Assembly (NCBI GenBank): GCA_902803685.1
Contig: CADCQR010000035.1
Coordinates: 1-10,122, forward strand
DNA from: an uncultured Erysipelotrichaceae bacterium
GTDB taxonomy: Bacteria; Bacillota_I; Bacilli_A; RF39; UBA660
Direction of reading: 5' to 3'
Length of the DNA stretch: 10,122 nt
The position numbers were made by a program, and so were the translations under genes. Positions 1 through 9,957 of the stretch are shown here, one piece after another; positions within the stretch are counted from its first letter, which is position 1, and each line of letters opens with the position of its first letter. The notes beneath the pieces are model-generated. The model saw only the letters and a program-made list of their open reading frames with translations, did not search any database and was not told the origin of the DNA.

Positions 1-2528
1 ACCCTAAACTTAGAATTTGACCAAATTTGATCGCTAACCACACCACTTGGTTTTTGGGTTGCTAAAATCAAATGCACACCTAACGATCTTCCAACACGAG
101 CTGTAGAAATAAGCTCATCCATGAATTCTGGCTCTTGATTCTTTAATTCGGCAAACTCATCACTAATGATAAATAAATGTGATAGAGGTTCTTTAATTTT
201 TCCTTCACGACAATATCTTTGATATTTATAAATATCAAGATTACTTTCACCGACTATTTCTTTAGCATCAGCAATTAACTTTTCTCTTCTTTTTAATTCC
301 GAATGAATAGATGTTATTACCCTATTTACTGCTGATTTATCAATATTAGTTACTATTCCAGCAATATGAGGAAGTTTTTCGAAGGATTTGGCCATTCCGC
401 CACCTTTATAGTCAATAAGGATAAAAGAGACTTCTTCAGGGCTATAATTAACAGCTAAGGATAATATATAAGTCATGATAAATTCTGATTTACCAGAACC
501 GGTTGTACCAGCAATTAACCCATGTGGCCCATGAAACTTTTGATGTAAATCTAAATAAAATGTATTTCCATATTTATCTACACCTATAGGAGCCTTTAAA
601 CTCTTAGTAATATCATTTTCTTTATATCGATTTAAAATATTTAGCTTTTCTATCTTACCAACTTTATACATATCTAAAAAACTTACAGTTGTTGGCAATT
701 CATAATTATCATCTTTTTTAATTAATTTAATATTAGATAACCTTTTAGCAATATAAGTTGGATCATTTGATAATTTATGATCAAATTTAAAATCTATTAC
801 ATCATAACTTGATTCATTTTTAGTTAAAACTCTTGATTTATTACCATTTAAATCAATAATTGTACTACATTCTTTAGGTAATTCTTCTATAGAACTATAA
901 AAATTAATTATACTAAAATTTAAATTAGTATTAGCATTTAATATATTATTAATGAAATCTGCTCTTATAGATAATTCTTTATCTAAATTAAAGATTATAT
1001 AATATGGTAATACCTCTTCTTTTTTATCTTTATTTTCAATACGATAATTAATATCTTCAGCTAAATAATAAGATAACTCTTTTACTTCATCGTTATTTGT
1101 GGCTATAAATCTAAAATCACTATCATTACTTATTGTATGAGGTAACCATTTAGTAAAATCAAAGCTTTTGTCATTATATATTACTATAAATTTAACTTCA
1201 TCATAACTGTATAAAGCAGCAGTTTCTATAATTAATTTTTTAGCAAATTCTTTTACTTCTTTAGTATCACCAATAACACCACTAATATAGTTATCATAGA
1301 ATGAAATATTTATCGGAACATTTTCAAGAATTTCTTTTTCTTTTCCTAGTACATCTAATCTTTCTTTTAAATCATCTTCAACTAAAGTAAACTTTTTCTC
1401 AGAATATTTTTTTTCAATATCCAAAGGAGTATTACCAGTACCTATTCTTAAATTTAAGAAATCATCTTGAAATACTTCCCTTTCCCATAAGCTTCGAGCT
1501 TTTTTTAGAATTCTTTCTTCTAATTCATTAATATTAACATAGTTTTCTTCTAGAATACTTCTTTGTTTTTTCTTTTCATTTTCAATTGATTTTTCAATAT
1601 CACTTAAATATTCATTATATCTTTTCTGTCTTGTGCTCTCATACTTTTTATTTGTATTTTTATCATAAGCGCGCATTATTAATGGCCATACTATCGTACA
1701 AGCCAATGAAATAGCAGACATTATTGGATTAAATACTGCAAATATAACGGTTGCTATTCCTGTTGTAACTGATGGACCAATAGTTAGTAACAAAGGCGTC
1801 TTGGCATTTTCTTTTTTATCAGGTGGAGAATCAATGTTAAGTATAAATGTCTCAATGTTCCTTTTAAGTCTAGGAGACCTATGAAAGGTATTATCTTCTC
1901 TATTATAATTTATTACTTTAGAGTTAATTTCATCAGTAAATTTAGATGCATCTATAGTAACAGAATCATTAGGATTATTAATCATTATAAAATTATTAAA
2001 TACAATTATTTTAAGTCCTAAGATATATATAACATCTCCATATGAAAGAGTTGTTTCTGCTATTAATTTATTATTAACAAAAGTTCCATTAACACTATCA
2101 GTATCTTTAATTGTCCATTTATTACCATGATGTTTTAATATAGCGTGTTTACTACTAATAAAACCATTTTGGTAATGAATGATATTAGAAGATGCTCTAC
2201 CTATAGTTATTTCAGCATCTTTATCTAAATAATACTTTTCATACTTCTTACGAGAATCATTATCTTCTTCAACATATATTAACCCAATTTCTTTTTCTAT
2301 TTCTATTATATTTATTGTATTCGGTTTTAAAACTAATTCACTTATTTCATTATCATCATCATCTAACAACCGATAGTTTTTACTTTTATCTATTAACCAT
2401 CTATCATCATCTGATTCAATAGCAATTAGATCTTTATTTCCAGGTATACCTAGAGAAAATGACCCTTCTACCTTTCTTGGAAGTATTAATTCTGTTAAAT
2501 CATTTTTATATATCAATGTTACTATCAT
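1..2528 (-). CDS. essC: EssC-type type VII secretion FtsK/SpoIIIE ATPase (N-terminal part, cut by window edge)
   Basis: This is the motor ATPase of a Bacillota type VII secretion system (T7SSb), which sits in the membrane and drives export of WXG100/LXG-type substrates. The 842 residues visible run in one frame. Residues 1-95 look like a degenerate first FHA domain. Residues 105-180 are a second, canonical-looking FHA domain with GR at 110-111, SSKH at 125-128 and NGT at 147-149. Two hydrophobic helices lie at about 243-283, followed by a charged coiled linker. The first ATPase module has Walker A GTTGSGKS at 674-681, LIDYKGGGM after it, and a Walker B ending ISDEF with D790-E791. The reading continues into ATQKPSGVV and leaves the window; family members are usually near 1,450-1,500 residues, so about 40 percent is missing. 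The ATG at 2528 has a strong ribosome binding site and starts 2 bases after the phosphatase stop. The domain order fits EssC/YukB better than a DNA translocase. The identification is secure; the FHA ligand is inferred. Confidence 0.95.
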   Translation of the reverse strand, partial: MIVTLIYKNDLTELILPRKVEGSFSLGIPGNKDLIAIESDDDRWLIDKSKNYRLLDDDDNEISELVLKPNTINIIEIEKEIGLIYVEEDNDSRKKYEKYYLDKDAEITIGRASSNIIHYQNGFISSKHAILKHHGNKWTIKDTDSVNGTFVNNKLIAETTLSYGDVIYILGLKIIVFNNFIMINNPNDSVTIDASKFTDEINSKVINYNREDNTFHRSPRLKRNIETFILNIDSPPDKKENAKTPLLLTIGPSVTTGIATVIFAVFNPIMSAISLACTIVWPLIMRAYDKNTNKKYESTRQKRYNEYLSDIEKSIENEKKKQRSILEENYVNINELEERILKKARSLWEREVFQDDFLNLRIGTGNTPLDIEKKYSEKKFTLVEDDLKERLDVLGKEKEILENVPINISFYDNYISGVIGDTKEVKEFAKKLIIETAALYSYDEVKFIVIYNDKSFDFTKWLPHTISNDSDFRFIATNNDEVKELSYYLAEDINYRIENKDKKEEVLPYYIIFNLDKELSIRADFINNILNANTNLNFSIINFYSSIEELPKECSTIIDLNGNKSRVLTKNESSYDVIDFKFDHKLSNDPTYIAKRLSNIKLIKKDDNYELPTTVSFLDMYKVGKIEKLNILNRYKENDITKSLKAPIGVDKYGNTFYLDLHQKFHGPHGLIAGTTGSGKSEFIMTYILSLAVNYSPEEVSFILIDYKGGGMAKSFEKLPHIAGIVTNIDKSAVNRVITSIHSELKRREKLIADAKEIVGESNLDIYKYQRYCREGKIKEPLSHLFIISDEFAELKNQEPEFMDELISTARVGRSLGVHLILATQKPSGVVSDQIWSNSKFR

Positions 2529-3335: not shown

Positions 3336-4832
3336 TTATTTCCATATTCCTTCTATTATTAAAGTAACAATTAAACCTACGATTAAAAATAGTACTATTA
3401 CTAAAAATATAGATGGCTCTTTCTTTTTTTCTAATTTACATTTTATATAATCATAATAGAAAATATACGAAGAAATCAATGAGCTTATACTAACTTCTAT
3501 TATGTCTTTTAAAAGACGGCTATGATCTTTACCACTTGATATTTCACTTACAATTCTATTGATATCAAAGTTCTTATCCCAAAATATAATACCCAGTATT
3601 ATAACATCAATTATTAAGGCCAATACCAACGGTTCATATGAAAGTCTAGGTTTTTCTTCTATTGTTTTTTCTATAGATACTTTAGTATCTCTATTTGGTA
3701 TTGTTGATTCTTCTTGCTCAGCATCTGAGTTATCTTCTTCAATAACTGTCTTAGGGATATTACTTTCCTCTTCGTTATTTTCTTCATCAACAGGAACTTC
3801 TTCTTTTGGATGTTGTTTCTTTCTTCTCTTACCATATAGACTGAGAGTATCACCCTCACCATTTTCTTCTTCCTGTGGCACTGACTCAGTAAATATCCTT
3901 TTAGCCCTTTTTATATTATTATAGGCTGTTTCTAAAGCTTCTTTTAATTCACTAGCATTTTGATATCTATCTTCTTTTTTATATGCACACATTTTTAATA
4001 TGATGCCAGCAATTTCATCATTAGCATTAACTGGTTTAGGAAGACTTTCTCCAGCATATCTTTTGAATCTTGCCTCTTCTCTAATTTCTACAGTTAAAGG
4101 CTTGTCATCGTCTGGATAAAAAGGGAATTTTTTATTATTAAAGAAACGATATAATACTATACCTAATGAGTAGATATCTACTGTTTTATCTATCTTTTTA
4201 GCATTTAATAATTCAGGCGCCATATAGTGTTCTGTTCCTTTAATCGAAACATTAGATATAGTACTATTTAGCTGTCTAGCCTCACCAAAATCTCCTAGTT
4301 TATAAATCCCATTTTTACTTACAAATATATTTTCTGGTTTTATATCACGATGAATAAATCTTTCACTTTCAAGTTCTATTAAAGCATTGGAAATATCTAT
4401 TCCAATTTTTAATACTTCCTTATCAGTTAAATCATCTTTTGAAAATAATGAAGCAATACTTTCTAAAAGTTCCATTCTAATATGTACTTTATAAGTTTTA
4501 GAGCAATAATCATTAGAAGACTCTATCTCTTCGACTTTATAATCTTCAATATTAACGATATTAATAGAATCTTTAAACTTATATAAAGCCTTTATTTCTT
4601 TTTTTAAGGCATTTACACTTGATTCAAGGTGTTCATCAATATTTTTCTGAGTAAAGCCCTCTGTTTTTAAAGAAGAAATATCGTCTATGTTATTAGGAAT
4701 ACTTATTTCCTTTATAGCACTATATATTTCTATATCTGAATCAACTTTTTTTGCTTTATAAACTGTACCAAATGAACCACGTCCAAGTATTTCTACACTT
4801 TTCCAAGTATTACCAAAAAAAGTTTTTGCCAT
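3336..4832 (-). CDS. Membrane-anchored Hanks-type Ser/Thr protein kinase, copy 1 (nearest the phosphatase)
   Basis: A 498-residue kinase with a cytoplasmic catalytic domain at about 10-310. It has glycine loop GRGSFGTV 17-24, ATP-binding K41, helix-C E79, catalytic HRD 161-163 with K165 and N168, DFG 181-183, and APE 205-207. All catalytic residues are intact, so it should be active. Residues 316-400 form an acidic, low-complexity linker that contains the motif DTLSLYGKRRKK at 328-339, shared with the other two kinases. The C-terminus has hydrophobic segments at about 401-418, 443-462 and 475-494, so the protein is membrane bound with no sizeable external sensor; PASTA repeats, typical of PrkC, are absent. 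The ATG at 4832 overlaps the upstream kinase stop by one base (TAATG) behind a good ribosome binding site. Part of the N-lobe is nearly identical in DNA to copy 3. Substrates are not visible; EssC and the kinases themselves are the obvious candidates. Confidence 0.93.
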   Translation of the reverse strand: MAKTFFGNTWKSVEILGRGSFGTVYKAKKVDSDIEIYSAIKEISIPNNIDDISSLKTEGFTQKNIDEHLESSVNALKKEIKALYKFKDSINIVNIEDYKVEEIESSNDYCSKTYKVHIRMELLESIASLFSKDDLTDKEVLKIGIDISNALIELESERFIHRDIKPENIFVSKNGIYKLGDFGEARQLNSTISNVSIKGTEHYMAPELLNAKKIDKTVDIYSLGIVLYRFFNNKKFPFYPDDDKPLTVEIREEARFKRYAGESLPKPVNANDEIAGIILKMCAYKKEDRYQNASELKEALETAYNNIKRAKRIFTESVPQEEENGEGDTLSLYGKRRKKQHPKEEVPVDEENNEEESNIPKTVIEEDNSDAEQEESTIPNRDTKVSIEKTIEEKPRLSYEPLVLALIIDVIILGIIFWDKNFDINRIVSEISSGKDHSRLLKDIIEVSISSLISSYIFYYDYIKCKLEKKKEPSIFLVIVLFLIVGLIVTLIIEGIWK

Positions 4833-6742
4833 TATTTCACCTCTTCAACAGTACAAGTAGTCTTAAATATTTCACCGCAAGCTTGAGTTGAAATAGTAAA
4901 TATTTCAAAGCAACCATCAGGATCTCTATTTTCATAATCATCTTTAATAACTTCTAATAGAGTTTTACCCTTTTCTATAACAAAACCATCTTTGGTATAA
5001 CCATATGTACCTAAGAATCCTTCGGGAACAATCTCATAACTAGAATAAATCTTAAATCCCTCTGTTTTAATATCGCAAGTATTTGGGACTACAAGAGCCT
5101 CTTCAGCGCAGAAGTTTTCTTTTATAATATTTGATACATGATTAACCAAATTTGGATCTTCAACGCCACCTAATGGCGGATATTCCCCATTAAATTCTAT
5201 TTTTTCTATAGTATTGTTAGTTTTATCAAAATAAAATTTATATTTAAAATTCTGTGGATGAGTAGTTTCCTGTTCTTCCTCAATACAAGTTAATATTTTA
5301 GCCGTCTGTTTTTCTTCTTTTGAAACTTTCTTAGTTGTCTTATTATCTTTAGGAATATTCATAAATATAATAGAAGCAACTATTCCAATAGCTAAAAGTG
5401 AAAATACAACTATCTTATCCTTAGTAAACTTTATCACTAAACCTTTTCTATTGGGTGTATAAACCTTTTTAATAGGCTTTGTCTTTATACCTTTATCTAT
5501 AATCTCTCCTCCACCAACTACAGTAGGTATAACACTTGGTATTAGAGATAACATAACTAATAAGGCCACTTTTTCCTTTTTACCATCTTTTACAGTTTCA
5601 GCCTCTAATACTATTTCATCTTCATCTTCTGAATTAGCAGGTATTACTACCTCATATTCTTTATCATCAATAGTTATTGTTTTAGTAGTACCTTTTTCAA
5701 GCTCTTCTTTAGATACTTCAACTACCTCAACCATTGTCTTTTTATGACTGCCATATAAAGAAATTGTTTTATTGCCCTCATCTTCTATAATTTCAGTAAA
5801 AATATTCTTTTTTTTCTTTAACTTCTCATAAACACTTTCTAAGTCACTTAAAAGCTCATCAAAGTCTCTATAACGTTTTTCTTTCTTATAAGCACACATT
5901 TTAAGTATAATATCAGCAATCTCATTACTAGCATTAACTGGTTTTGGTAAATCTTCACCACTAATTCTTTTATATATAGCTTCCTCTCTTATACTAGATG
6001 GAATTCTTCTATTTGTTTGAGGTAAAAAAGGAAGCTTTTTATTATTGAAGAATCTATATAAAACAATACCTAATGAATAAATATCTGAAGTATAATCAGC
6101 TTTTTCTCCTTTATATATTTCAGGAGACATATAATTCTCTGTTCCCTTTTTAGATAGATTAGATATAGTCTTATTTAAATTCTTAGCCTCACCAAAATCC
6201 CCTAGTTTATAAATACCCTTTTTATTAACAAATATATTTTCTGGTTTTACATCACGATGAATTATTTTATGTCCATGACATTCTCTTAAAGCCTTAGTGA
6301 TATCTATAGCCATTTTTAAAACATCTTTATCTGTTACATCTTCTTGTAGGAAGAAACCATCAATACTACTTAATAACTCCATTCTAATATTAACAGTATA
6401 TTTTTTAGAATAATTTGGATCATCAATATCTTCTTCTAATTCTTCAAAATCTTCAATTCTTACAATATTTTCAGAATTCTTTAAATCATACATTACTTTT
6501 ATTTCATTAATGAATTTAGTCTTTATATCTAATAATTCTTCATCAATATCTTTTGTACTTAATCCCTCTGTAGTAAGTGTCTTTACTATTTCTATATCAC
6601 TTGGTATAGTTATTTCTTTTATGGCAGAATAGTTTTCTATTTCATCATTTGCTTTTTTAGCTTTATAAACAGTTCCAAAAGAACCTTTACCTAATATTTC
6701 TACACTCTCCCAAGTGTCTTTAAAAAACGTCTTCTTACTCAT
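4832..6742 (-). CDS. Membrane-anchored Hanks-type Ser/Thr protein kinase, copy 2, with cysteine-containing C-terminal domain
   Basis: A 636-residue kinase. The catalytic domain has GKGSFGTV 18-25, K42, E80, HRD 162-164, DFG 182-184 and SPE 206-208, all intact. The linker carries KTISLYGSHKK at 325-335. Residues 341-386 resemble one half-repeat of a DnaJ C-terminal domain (KGTTKTITI, then a VVIPA strand). Hydrophobic stretches lie at about 391-409 and 444-462. The tail 463-636 has six cysteines (486, 545, 556, 611, 622, 630) and looks like a folded domain, possibly outside the cell with disulfides. The basic loop between the two hydrophobic stretches suggests that only the second spans the membrane, which would put the tail outside. 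An in-frame ATG at 6754 would add four residues (MVDN) and overlap the upstream gene. I chose 6742 because it aligns residue for residue with copy 3; neither start has a strong ribosome binding site. Kinase identity is firm; the tail function is unknown. Confidence 0.92.
   Translation of the reverse strand: MSKKTFFKDTWESVEILGKGSFGTVYKAKKANDEIENYSAIKEITIPSDIEIVKTLTTEGLSTKDIDEELLDIKTKFINEIKVMYDLKNSENIVRIEDFEELEEDIDDPNYSKKYTVNIRMELLSSIDGFFLQEDVTDKDVLKMAIDITKALRECHGHKIIHRDVKPENIFVNKKGIYKLGDFGEAKNLNKTISNLSKKGTENYMSPEIYKGEKADYTSDIYSLGIVLYRFFNNKKLPFLPQTNRRIPSSIREEAIYKRISGEDLPKPVNASNEIADIILKMCAYKKEKRYRDFDELLSDLESVYEKLKKKKNIFTEIIEDEGNKTISLYGSHKKTMVEVVEVSKEELEKGTTKTITIDDKEYEVVIPANSEDEDEIVLEAETVKDGKKEKVALLVMLSLIPSVIPTVVGGGEIIDKGIKTKPIKKVYTPNRKGLVIKFTKDKIVVFSLLAIGIVASIIFMNIPKDNKTTKKVSKEEKQTAKILTCIEEEQETTHPQNFKYKFYFDKTNNTIEKIEFNGEYPPLGGVEDPNLVNHVSNIIKENFCAEEALVVPNTCDIKTEGFKIYSSYEIVPEGFLGTYGYTKDGFVIEKGKTLLEVIKDDYENRDPDGCFEIFTISTQACGEIFKTTCTVEEVK
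4837..4845 (-). promoter_or_regulatory. Ribosome binding site of kinase copy 1
   Basis: The minus strand reads AAGAGGTGA, 4 bases before the ATG at 4832. It lies inside the end of the upstream kinase gene and supports this start and coupled translation across the one-base overlap. Confidence 0.7.
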
Positions 6743-6747
6743 ATTAT

Positions 6748-8655
6748 CTACCATTCACTTTCTTTAGTAATTTTATCAAATATTAACCAATCTAAGATCG
6801 TTGTCGCTATAAAACCTAGAAGGAAAGAAACAAATATTTCGCCAACCATTAGGAAACTAATACCTGTACAAATAATTAAACTTATAACAACTAAATTCTG
6901 TGATTTCTTATAACGGGCATCTTGTTGCTCTACTAAAAGTTTAAATATAAAATCACCTTTCTCCAACAAAAATACTTTTTTTCTTTCTTCAAAAGGAGGA
7001 ACCTTTACTACAATCTGCTTTCCATTATGTGTAACAATACGTACACAACCATTTTTAGCTTCATCAACCGATATAATTAGTTTTTCTTGTGATAAATTAC
7101 TATTTAATCTATTAGTAAAAGTCGAAGGTTTATCTAATACTACCAATAATACCTCTTTTATAACATCATCCTGTTTAACTTTAAATATATCACGATCTTT
7201 TAAACCATCTTTAACAGGTATCAATAACTCTTTATTAGGCCTAATTTTTACTTGCTTTCGAATATTTTTATTAGCTTCTTCTTTACTCAAAAACAAAACA
7301 TAATCATAATTAGAGGCCAATTCTACAGAATTCGAATCCTTTGGAAAGCCCAAAGTTTCGGCAAATTTTTGAGCTACATCTACTACTTCTTCATAATCCT
7401 CTATTTGTGCTGTTTCAGAATCTTCAACTTCTTCAGGCTCTTCTTCAATTTCTGAATCAGAGTCCTCTTCTATATCTTCTTTAGTAGCAGTTACTCTTTT
7501 TCTATTTCCATATAAACTAAGTGTTTTATTAAATTTATCTTCTTCAATTTCTTCAGATTCATCGCTAGCTTCAACAGCTGTTTCAACAACTTTCTCTTCT
7601 ACAGACTTATTCTCGTTTTTCTTTCTAGCATATAAAGACATTGTCTTATTTTCAGGCTCTTCTTCATTAGAAGGTTCAGTTTTTTCACTAGTTGTTTCAA
7701 CTTTAATATTAAAAATATTTTTAGCCCTTTTTATATTATTATAAGCCTCAGTCAAATCAGCTTTTAACTCCGAAGCATTCTTATAACGATTCTCAACATC
7801 ATAGTCACACATTTTAAGTATAATTCTTGCTACTTCATCATTAGCATTAACCGGTTTAGGTAAAGTCTCCCCACTATATCTTCTATACCTTGCCTCTTCA
7901 CGAGTCTTAGCACTAATAGGTTTACCATCAGTTGGATAAAAAGGAAATTTCTTATCATTAAAGAAACGATATAATACAATTCCTAAAGAATATATATCAA
8001 CTGTCTTATCAACCTTTTTAGCCCCTAAAAGCTCAGGCGCCATATAATGCTCAGTACCACGAATAGAAACATTAGAAAGAGTCCTATTAAGCTGTTTAGC
8101 TTCACCAAAATCTCCTAATTTATATACACCATTTTTATTAACAAATATATTTTCAGGTTTTATATCACGATGAATAAATTTATTTTCTTCCAACTCTTCT
8201 AGGGCTGTTGCGATATCAATTGCCATCTTTAATACTTCTTTATCTTTTAAATCATCTTTAAAAAACAAAGAAGTAATACTTTCTAAAAGTTCCATTCTAA
8301 TATATACTTTATAAGTTTTAGAACAATAATCATTAGAAGACTCTATCTCTTCAACTCTATAATCTTCAATATTAACAATATTAATAGAATCTTTAAACTT
8401 ATATAAAGCCTTTATCTCTTTCTTTAAATCACTTAATTCCTTTTCAAACTCATCATCTATATTCTCTAAAGTCATACCCTCAGTTCTAAAAGTAGAAATA
8501 GCCTCCGAATCATGTGGAATACATATTTCCTTTATAGCACTTAATACTTCAAGTTCAGTATTAGTCTTTCTAACCTTATAAACAGATCCATAAGAGCCTT
8601 TACCAATTAATTCAACACTTTCCCATTCTCCATCCCAAAACATCTTCTTACCCAT
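6748..8655 (-). CDS. Membrane-anchored Hanks-type Ser/Thr protein kinase, copy 3 (first gene of the operon), with DnaJ-CTD-like region
   Basis: A 635-residue kinase. The catalytic domain has GKGSYGSV 18-25, K42, E80, HRD 162-164, DFG 182-184 and APE 206-208, all intact. A long acidic linker (about 318-425) carries the shared motif twice, KTMSLYARKK at 337-346 and KTLSLYGNRKR at 377-387. Residues about 466-577 read like the C-terminal substrate-binding region of DnaJ/Hsp40: a KELLIPVKDGL strand, a VVLDKPSTF stretch, ISVDEAKNG, HNGKQIVVKVPP, then VFLLEKGDF. There is no J-domain HPD motif and no zinc-finger cysteines. Two hydrophobic helices at about 587-606 and 607-626 end the protein, probably as a hairpin that leaves the rest cytoplasmic. 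The ATG at 8655 follows AAGGAG by 8 bases and has its own promoter upstream. As first gene it sets expression of the kinase-phosphatase-essC operon. The kinase call is firm; the DnaJ-like call is by eye only. Confidence 0.92.
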   Translation of the reverse strand: MGKKMFWDGEWESVELIGKGSYGSVYKVRKTNTELEVLSAIKEICIPHDSEAISTFRTEGMTLENIDDEFEKELSDLKKEIKALYKFKDSINIVNIEDYRVEEIESSNDYCSKTYKVYIRMELLESITSLFFKDDLKDKEVLKMAIDIATALEELEENKFIHRDIKPENIFVNKNGVYKLGDFGEAKQLNRTLSNVSIRGTEHYMAPELLGAKKVDKTVDIYSLGIVLYRFFNDKKFPFYPTDGKPISAKTREEARYRRYSGETLPKPVNANDEVARIILKMCDYDVENRYKNASELKADLTEAYNNIKRAKNIFNIKVETTSEKTEPSNEEEPENKTMSLYARKKNENKSVEEKVVETAVEASDESEEIEEDKFNKTLSLYGNRKRVTATKEDIEEDSDSEIEEEPEEVEDSETAQIEDYEEVVDVAQKFAETLGFPKDSNSVELASNYDYVLFLSKEEANKNIRKQVKIRPNKELLIPVKDGLKDRDIFKVKQDDVIKEVLLVVLDKPSTFTNRLNSNLSQEKLIISVDEAKNGCVRIVTHNGKQIVVKVPPFEERKKVFLLEKGDFIFKLLVEQQDARYKKSQNLVVISLIICTGISFLMVGEIFVSFLLGFIATTILDWLIFDKITKESEW

Positions 8656-8706: not shown

Positions 8707-8739
8707 TTATAAAAAAGATTATTTATTCCTTTTATAATT
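8705..8739. repeat. AT-only inverted repeat at the end of the GT51-like gene
   Basis: Arms 8705-8714 (AATTATAAAA) and 8730-8739 (TTTTATAATT) are perfectly complementary, with a 15-base loop that includes the stop codon of the upstream gene. The stem has no G-C pairs and no clean T-run follows on the minus strand, so it is at best a weak terminator or processing site. In such AT-rich DNA it could be chance. Confidence 0.25.
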
Positions 8740-9957
8740 AAACCACTCAATAGTTCTAAATAACTCATCATCACTAATATTAAATCTTATGAATAAAGAA
8801 GAATATTTATTTTTAATTTTATTAAAATCAATCCTATTATTTTTCAATATATCAGTCTTATCCAATTTTCCTGATAAAGATAAAACATAAAATAAAAAAT
8901 CACAGTCACTTATCTTCCTCCTTTTAAATAACTCATAGTATGATTGATATCTATTCTTCCCTAAAAATACTAAAGCATTGTTTAAGTAACACTCAATTAT
9001 AAAGTATCTAAATCTTTCTGTACTTACAACAGTATAATTCGTCTTATAGTATTTTTTTAATCCTTTAAAAAATATTTGACTATATACAAGTTCAGCAAAT
9101 TTTCTAGGAATTACTTTCTCAAATCCATTTTTTATCGCAATAGTTCTAAATAATTGCATTTCAATAGTAGAATGTCCTCTCCAAAGACTTAAAACATATT
9201 TATAAATCTTAATAACATAATACTTAATACTTTTATTTTTAGTAGTATCCTTTTCTAACATCTGTTTAGATATAAAAATATTAATTAACTGTTTAATTTT
9301 AAAAATAATAAACCTAAAACTAATCATATTATAGCTATTATCTCTGTAAAAGAAAGACTTATCTTCAATATATGTAAGTATTTCTCTTTTATTAAAAGAC
9401 AATACTTTAAAGCTACCAAAACTAGATTGTTTGTTTAACTCTTCCATTATTTCATCAAATGTTTTAAATTCAAGATCATTTTTACTAATAAATAGTATTA
9501 TATAAACAAAAGTTACAATAGCAGATAAACTATTAAAAAGTAAAACATTATTATTTACAATAAAATTAATAATATTATAGGGATGTTTAATAAATGAATA
9601 TATAATACCCATATCTATTTTATTAATAAAATAAATTAATAGTAAAAAACATAAAAAAGAATATTTAAATATTAATAAATATATAGTATCAACAATCTTA
9701 TCATATATACTAGGAATTAACTTATGTTTATAATAATCGTCTATTAATATTTCATATTGAAAGAAAAAAACAAATAAAAATATACCTACCATTATATATA
9801 AATTTAAAGTATTAAACAAACCCAATATTATAATGATTGTATAAATAACTATTATCTTAGAATTATCTAATTTATGTCGTTCATTATTAAATAAATAATA
9901 TAATAATATACCAAATAGAACATATACATTATCTTTAAAAAAACTTTCTATTTCCAT
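8719..9957 (-). CDS. Polytopic membrane protein with GT51-like peptidoglycan glycosyltransferase (transglycosylase) domain
   Basis: A 412-residue protein. The first 160 residues hold about five hydrophobic segments (near 11-23, 34-48, 50-67, 91-111, 138-158). The C-terminal half shows the ordered motifs of family GT51, which polymerises lipid II into glycan strands outside the membrane. EDKSFF at 198-203 matches the catalytic-Glu motif (EDxxF). GHSTIEMQL at 261-269 matches GxSTIxQQ. RKFAE at 285-289 matches RKxxE, and IIECYLN at 320-326 matches IxExYLN. The histidine after EDxxF is replaced by R205 and the usual QQ is MQ, so the enzyme is divergent or perhaps altered in activity. No transpeptidase domain follows. 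GT51 enzymes normally have one N-terminal helix, so the polytopic front is unusual. The gene looks even more AT-rich than its neighbours. It has its own promoter and lies 63 bases before the kinase operon in the same direction. The motif match is good by eye; the role with the secretion system is inferred. Confidence 0.72.
   Translation of the reverse strand: MEIESFFKDNVYVLFGILLYYLFNNERHKLDNSKIIVIYTIIIILGLFNTLNLYIMVGIFLFVFFFQYEILIDDYYKHKLIPSIYDKIVDTIYLLIFKYSFLCFLLLIYFINKIDMGIIYSFIKHPYNIINFIVNNNVLLFNSLSAIVTFVYIILFISKNDLEFKTFDEIMEELNKQSSFGSFKVLSFNKREILTYIEDKSFFYRDNSYNMISFRFIIFKIKQLINIFISKQMLEKDTTKNKSIKYYVIKIYKYVLSLWRGHSTIEMQLFRTIAIKNGFEKVIPRKFAELVYSQIFFKGLKKYYKTNYTVVSTERFRYFIIECYLNNALVFLGKNRYQSYYELFKRRKISDCDFLFYVLSLSGKLDKTDILKNNRIDFNKIKNKYSSLFIRFNISDDELFRTIEWFNYKRNK

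Follow-up and report, generated by a model that had tools for sequence, protein, structure and literature searches.

Among the closest described systems, autophosphorylated N-terminal threonines of the kinase PknG anchor the FHA domain of GarA, and the GarA peptide SDEVTVETTSVFRADFL carries the ETTSVF phosphosite of GarA/OdhI, according to the available text of PMC8546545; the ETTS of GarA also appears in the available portions of PMC5448819 and PMC12321487. T7SS clusters can contain kinase, phosphatase and FHA genes, and TsdC, TseC and TsjC are described as conserving phospho-Thr recognition in the available text of PMC11217815, which also places TssL-Fha in a T6SS threonine phosphorylation pathway and whose authors raise phospho-regulation of T7SSd, T7SSe and T7SSj as a possibility only. 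For T7SSb, the topology puts the N-terminus of EssC in the cytosol, and early pull-down and two-hybrid searches for a partner of its FHA domain failed (PMC4925161, available text); the EssB pseudokinase has since been named as that partner (PMC11217815, available text). The available text of PMC11217815 says nothing of docking sites in linkers, the terms linker and autophosphorylation have 0 occurrences there, and our literature search found no report of the linker motif described below in the available text of open-licence papers.

Here, we analyzed a window, meaning the whole stretch of DNA under study (10,122 nucleotides), in which three tandem kinases with short threonine-containing linker sites adjoin an EssC-type ATPase. 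The reading that we prefer, with a probability of roughly 0.6, is that these sites are autophosphorylated and dock the EssC FHA domain in a T7SSe/T7SSj-like system; the phosphorylation, the binding, its resetting and any effect on secretion are steps that we infer.

Gene row and linker sites

The window holds a single minus-strand gene row made up of a 412-aa membrane protein, the kinases K3, K2 and K1, a PP2C phosphatase and the start of EssC (Table 1). The T7SSe/T7SSj gene set of an FHA-bearing EssC-type ATPase, a membrane kinase and a PPM phosphatase is therefore found together here, and among the 9 ORFs of at least 60 aa in the ORF list of the window, in which EssC is cut by the window edge, none stood out as a WXG100-like small gene. 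K1 to K3 have C-terminal hydrophobic segments by eye, with a helix at residues 606 to 631 in the AlphaFold model of K3, and K1 and K3 are close paralogues with 54 percent identity. The 412-aa membrane protein has a GHSTIEMQLFR stretch with a weak match to the peptidoglycan transglycosylase family (PF00912, E 0.023, below the cut-off), and from its sequence it is possibly a diverged glycosyltransferase tied to the secretion locus.

Table 1. Features of the window, listed by position.
Feature	Position	Strand	Details
EssC-like ATPase of the FtsK/SpoIIIE type; FHA at the N-terminus; initial 842 aa, continuing past window edge	3..2528	(-)	Pfam FHA 1e-15, FtsK_SpoIIIE 3.5e-33
EssC FHA domain, residues 107-169 (about 95-185)	2022..2210	(-)	G-R, S-x-x-H, N-G signature complete
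PP2C/PPM-type phosphatase, 267 aa	2531..3334	(-)	Pfam PF00481 1.3e-11
Kinase K1, 498 aa	3336..4832	(-)	kinase domain about 11-293, Pfam PF00069 1.9e-39
K1 motif site DTLSLYGKRRKK, Thr329	3816..3851	(-)	predicted protein
Kinase K2, 640 aa	4832..6754	(-)	kinase domain about 16-296, Pfam PF00069 3.3e-41
K2 motif site KTISLYGSHKK, Thr330	5738..5770	(-)	predicted protein
K2 activation loop DFGEAKNLNKTISNLSKKGTENYMSPE	6119..6199	(-)	N-K-T-I-S in common with linker motif
Kinase K3, 635 aa	6748..8655	(-)	kinase domain about 12-292, Pfam PF00069 3.3e-41; long linker; C-terminal hydrophobic segment
K3 motif site 2 KTLSLYGNRKR, Thr378	7495..7527	(-)	predicted protein; AlphaFold low-confidence stretch
K3 motif site 1 KTMSLYARKK, Thr338	7618..7647	(-)	predicted protein; AlphaFold low-confidence stretch
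K3 activation loop DFGEAKQLNRTLSNVSIRGTEHYMAPE	8032..8112	(-)	N-[KR]-T-L-S in common with linker motif
412-aa membrane protein	8719..9957	(-)	

The initial annotation had described four T-x-S-L-Y-G-basic sites in the linkers of the three kinases, and we found all four in the predicted proteins as T-[LIM]-S-L-Y-[GA], at the ranges that it gave for K2 and K3; its K1 range (3819-3851) was 3 bases short. Leu is at +3 from the motif Thr, as it had noted. Of 200,000 shuffles of the K1 to K3 tails, 25 produced a single T[ILMV]SLY[GA] and none produced two or more. The claim that a short motif is kept amid diverged linker sequence held in the five closest kinases (K1 to K3, P0001 and P0002), where the motif's T, S, L and Y never vary and few columns elsewhere in the tail are invariant. 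The motif codons differ among the copies (ACT CTC AGT CTA TAT in K1 versus ACA ATT TCT TTA TAT in K2), so the motif is not a mere DNA remnant of duplication. The basic tail that had been made part of the motif is present in the window and in both P0001 and P0002 but is not general, since elsewhere the aromatic is followed mainly by G, D, S, N or A; it is lineage-specific, and we dropped it as a defining part of the motif because it is not common to the sites found in other kinases. Past its motif, K2 has a short stretch (residues about 342 to 376, around TKTITIDDKEYEVVIPAN) that is also in P0002 and P0018, and a relative, P0020, is annotated with PF01556 (DnaJ C-terminal domain).

The AlphaFold model of K3 has pLDDT below 50 from residue 318 onward (predicted disorder or no confident model), with values of about 28 to 33 in the motif region. 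The PknG/GarA-type feature of a disordered kinase extension bearing Thr sites is thus found here, in the four sites and in the pLDDT below 50 of the linker of K3, the kinase that was modeled.

Recurrence of the motif and its link to EssC

Among the 120 homologous kinases listed of 5007 matches, the exact T-x-S-L-[YF]-[GA] form was present in 2 (P0001 and P0002), and several others had looser forms past the kinase domain, such as DKTVGIFS, HTVSIFS and DKTESIYS. The core common to the linker sites is T-x-[SG]-x-[FYW], which is wider than T-x-S-L-Y-G-basic; it was picked after part of the data had been viewed, and the offset profile and the genome test given below are the less biased checks. A scan of genome contigs with K3 alone found no relative. 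With alignment A1, the genome-contig scan gave the best 79 loci with related kinases, and the viral-contig scan found no relative. A1 has 13 rows, and the patterns with which it seeded the 79-locus search lie inside the kinase domain; because some of its rows were picked for having a motif, the invariance of T338 in A1 is not counted as evidence. The best 79 loci, the EssC neighborhoods and PrkC and other kinase genes together gave a linker set of 172 kinases, from which duplicates, kinase domains short of their C-terminal end and linkers of fewer than 15 residues had been dropped.

In this set, T-x-[SG]-x-[FYW] was present in 23 of the 46 EssC-linked kinases, with 46 sites compared to a shuffled mean of 3.3 and a maximum of 9 over 200 shuffles, and in 3/21 kinases linked to another FHA protein, 14/69 with no FHA seen in the locus, 1/32 PrkC and 0/4 others. 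The expectation that the motif would recur in kinases near essC elsewhere is borne out in this general form by 20 of the 43 EssC-linked kinases outside the window. When Ser took the place of Thr, the EssC-linked group had 2 sites, not above the shuffled 3.0; the reversed pattern also gave 2 sites, and with Asp/Glu or Lys/Arg/Asn/Gln in place of Thr the enrichment was gone. Recognition of Thr only is a hallmark of FHA domains. Aromatic residues around Thr peak at +4 only (50, compared to 12 to 27 at other offsets from -8 to +8, with one of the five L078 kinases kept), the peak remains when the window sequences are removed (46 compared to 11 to 24), and Ser has 10 aromatics at +4 and no peak. 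At least two sites were present in 13 of the 23 motif-bearing EssC-linked kinases; such common multi-site linkers would fit avidity, which they do not prove. The +3 residue agreed among sites at 0.49 within a genome versus 0.09 between genomes (reached in 0/500 label shuffles), as if each FHA pocket had its own preference, although tandem duplication of sites or kinases can also cause such agreement. The strict motif form was absent from 23/46 EssC-linked kinases, including those of L006, L007, L010, L026 and L072, which have looser variants (NTVTMF, DRTVRLM) or none.

Two predicted membrane proteins that are not kinases also have the motif. One, of 245 aa (L027:7184-7921), lies beside three EssC-linked kinases and has an acidic tail with EKTVGAF, EQTVGVF and EKTVGAF, which makes it a candidate phospho-Thr adaptor; the other, of 209 aa (L036:8703-9332), has DKTVSVFGG near its N-terminus and lies between a PP2C gene and kinases. 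Because the motif is found in both of them, it is portable. Scattered matches in other reading frames of the same scan were taken for chance. A different form, T-[VIM]-[SA]-[VI]-[RKHQN], was present in 6/21 kinases linked to another FHA protein, 0/46 EssC-linked kinases and 2/69 with no FHA seen. The six variant-bearing kinases adjoin 2xFHA-ABC-ABC2 exporters, and in L002, L003, L017 and L049 the form is T-[VIM]-[SA]-V-[RQ]-[RKH]. At L002, L003, L017, L019, L049 and L075, the exporters beside the kinases have two FHA domains plus ABC and ABC2 domains, an Rv1747-like layout.

The genome test used the 73 genomes with a usable linker from the best 79 loci, which had been gathered by kinase similarity alone. 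The motif was not equally frequent where EssC is missing, as the initial annotation had required: it was present in 15/39 EssC genomes versus 2/34 EssC-less genomes (Fisher p 0.0017) and, counted by kinase, in 24/74 with an EssC match versus 3/43 without (p 0.0014). Shuffled linkers gave 4.35 EssC genomes (maximum 11) and 1.75 EssC-less genomes (maximum 6), and the Ser control was also commoner with EssC (9/39 versus 3/34). Four of the 15 EssC genomes (G021, G038, G045 and G557) have weak-looking sites only, and without them the counts are 11/39 versus 2/34 (p 0.015). Mapped on the kinase tree, the motif undergoes 18 or more changes; of 12 independent pairs differing in EssC, on average 4.3 had a motif difference that followed EssC, 0.5 had one that ran counter to it and 7.2 had no motif difference (median p 0.22). 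After this correction for kinase phylogeny, the link between EssC and the motif is weak, in that its direction holds but is not significant, with low power.

EssC is the sole PF00498 match in G006, G007, G010 and G293, whose kinases have the motif and whose assembly completeness is not given. Both EssC-less genomes with the motif have another FHA protein, namely a 566-aa frame in G005 and a 2xFHA-ABC exporter in G012, and the motif association is not exclusive to EssC. The sole FHA of G280 is that of EssC, with one signature residue changed, and the linked kinase is without the motif; in G033, the motif is present without any FHA match, and the EssC match begins at the contig end. At L006 (G016:C7), an EssC frame is followed by an EssC stretch with stop codons; this copy looks broken, and the open frame alone was used.

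The EssC FHA of the window is intact, as had been claimed, with its G-R, S-x-x-H and N-G signature complete. In the AlphaFold model, the N-terminal part of this EssC matches the phosphopeptide-binding FHA domains of EmbR, EssC-N, FhaA and OdhI. Among 36 genomes, a non-PrkC kinase was present in 10/10 with all six signature residues in the EssC FHA versus 11/26 others (p 0.0018). Kinases were taken as non-PrkC at E above 1e-50, which scores the second kinase of G404 as PrkC though its tail looks unlike PrkC; when it is recounted as non-PrkC, the comparison becomes 12/26 (p 0.0027). The 36 genomes were drawn from 46, leaving out G221, G523, G444 and G456, where EssC is without FHA or cut, and G168, G124, G115, G216, G195 and G106, where the EssC locus was not taken at length; the second EssC copies of G094 and G130, both degenerate, were also left out. 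In total, 69 kinase matches were entered, and the rest were extra kinases of genomes already scored or belonged to genomes not used. With the strict EssC signature, a kinase lay within about 20 kb of 13/22 intact and 8/32 degenerate EssC (p 0.022), and three of the degenerate FHAs that adjoin kinases differ by Gly for Ser only. In Bacilli genomes with little but PrkC, the EssC FHA is mostly degenerate. The Bacilli EssC orthologues of L110-L127 and L129 retain the FHA region and have lost the phospho-Thr residues (L110 nearly intact, L123 not alignable), and PrkC-like kinases are often the only ones in these genomes.

Competing explanations

The motif might dock a different FHA protein outside the window, for instance one that resembles TsxJ or an FHA-ABC exporter, in which case EssC would be a bystander. 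The EssC-less genomes G005 and G012, with their FHA frame and exporter, are what this explanation would lead one to see, separate FHA proteins are components of T7SSe and T7SSj (PMC11217815, available text), and the FHA survey of the window's own organism covers the window alone. We nevertheless consider it unlikely, since EssC is the only window protein with an FHA match and holds the only FHA match in the four motif-bearing genomes named above, and since six kinases beside FHA-ABC exporters have the distinct T-[VIM]-[SA]-V-[RQ] variant (L002, L003, L017 and L049), which none of the 46 EssC-linked kinases has. It is likewise improbable that the motif is an autophosphorylation or substrate consensus that mimics the activation loop, tunes kinase activity and is read by no FHA. 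Many of these kinases do have a [DEN]-[KR]-T-x-[SG] core in both the activation loop and the linker, with NKTIS in both places in K2; because T-x-[SG]-x-hydrophobic resembles activation loops, kinase specificity may account for part of the motif. However, in the group with no FHA in the locus, 33 kinases have the loop T-x-[SG] but no linker motif and 12 have both, and a kinase consensus predicts neither the link to EssC nor the link between FHA integrity and kinases.

Far less probable is a linear motif that works without phosphorylation, by docking on the kinase domain or the phosphatase or by binding membrane or nucleic acid through the basic tail. Hydrophobic-plus-basic stretches are common docking motifs, and the window sites do have the basic tail. 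On the other hand, the basic run after the motif is not common to the sites compared, the enrichment in the EssC-linked group is lost with Ser, Asp/Glu or Lys/Arg/Asn/Gln for Thr, and the K3 model places the motif region without confidence, which is a weak test. The confidence profile of this model showed no sign that the motif docks on the kinase domain, but the linker is too uncertain in it for this to count. The chance that tandem duplicates kept a short stretch by accident, either as a residue of paralogy or at random, is slight indeed: the close paralogy of K1 and K3 speaks for it, but the shuffled tails, the differing codons and the recurrence of the motif in distant kinases and in two non-kinase proteins speak against it.

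Proposed mechanism and comparison with known systems

The proposal of the initial annotation that the linker sites are autophosphorylated docking sites for EssC is partly supported by these results. In this model, Thr in the disordered linker of each membrane kinase would be phosphorylated by that kinase or, in trans, by a sister kinase, which the core common to activation loops and linkers makes plausible; the linker should be cytosolic because it lies between the kinase domain and the C-terminal hydrophobic segments. The canonical FHA at the cytosolic N-terminus of EssC would read the phospho-Thr with Leu at +3 and Tyr at +4, and this reading would tether the kinases to the T7SS ATPase. The adjoining PP2C phosphatase may act as the eraser that resets the mark, and the two sites of K3 together with the three kinases could engage several EssC subunits together. 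A broader and more tentative proposal, which we regard as possible but doubtful, is an address code in Bacillota and Synergistota of the gut and the environment, in which T-x-[SG]-x-aromatic would direct kinases to EssC-type T7SS ATPases and T-V-S-V-[RK] to FHA-ABC exporters; kinase linkers and small motif-only membrane adaptors would carry the sites, and phosphorylation would recruit kinases to the matching export machine and gate it, with the FHA of EssC itself as reader. What we propose as new is that phosphorylated linkers of kinases dock an FHA domain belonging to a secretion ATPase; the layout of kinase, phosphatase and FHA is known. The motif is a concrete candidate ligand for the EssC FHA in kinase-bearing T7SS variants and, if it is the ligand, peptides and point mutants could test the switching of these secretion systems by Thr phosphorylation, as in T6SS.

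As far as the available text on each system goes, the window shares features with several of them. Like K1 to K3, the actinobacterial PknG-GarA and PknG-OdhI pairs combine a disordered kinase extension with Thr sites and an FHA partner, but the PknG sites are N-terminal in poorly conserved sequence and the partner is a metabolic regulator rather than a secretion ATPase; the ETTSVF of GarA fits T-x-[SG]-x-[FYW] but sits on the FHA protein and not on the kinase. The twin N-terminal FHA folds of T7SSb EssC are like those of the window EssC (PMC4925161, PMC11217815), but the T7SSb FHA is without phospho-Thr residues and has the EssB pseudokinase as its partner, whereas in the window EssC these residues are intact, and kinases with conserved catalytic motifs adjoin it. 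T7SSd, T7SSe and T7SSj are like the window in having an EssC-type ATPase with a phospho-Thr FHA and a membrane Ser/Thr kinase, with a PPM phosphatase in T7SSe and T7SSj; the window differs from them in its three tandem kinases, and further T7SSe/T7SSj components are not apparent in the stretch that it covers. In the PpkA-PppA-Fha system of T6SS, a membrane kinase, a phosphatase and an FHA protein switch a secretion machine (PMC6082577), as may be the case here, but in T6SS the FHA is a protein of its own, whereas in the window it is built into the ATPase, with the kinase carrying the candidate phospho-Thr.
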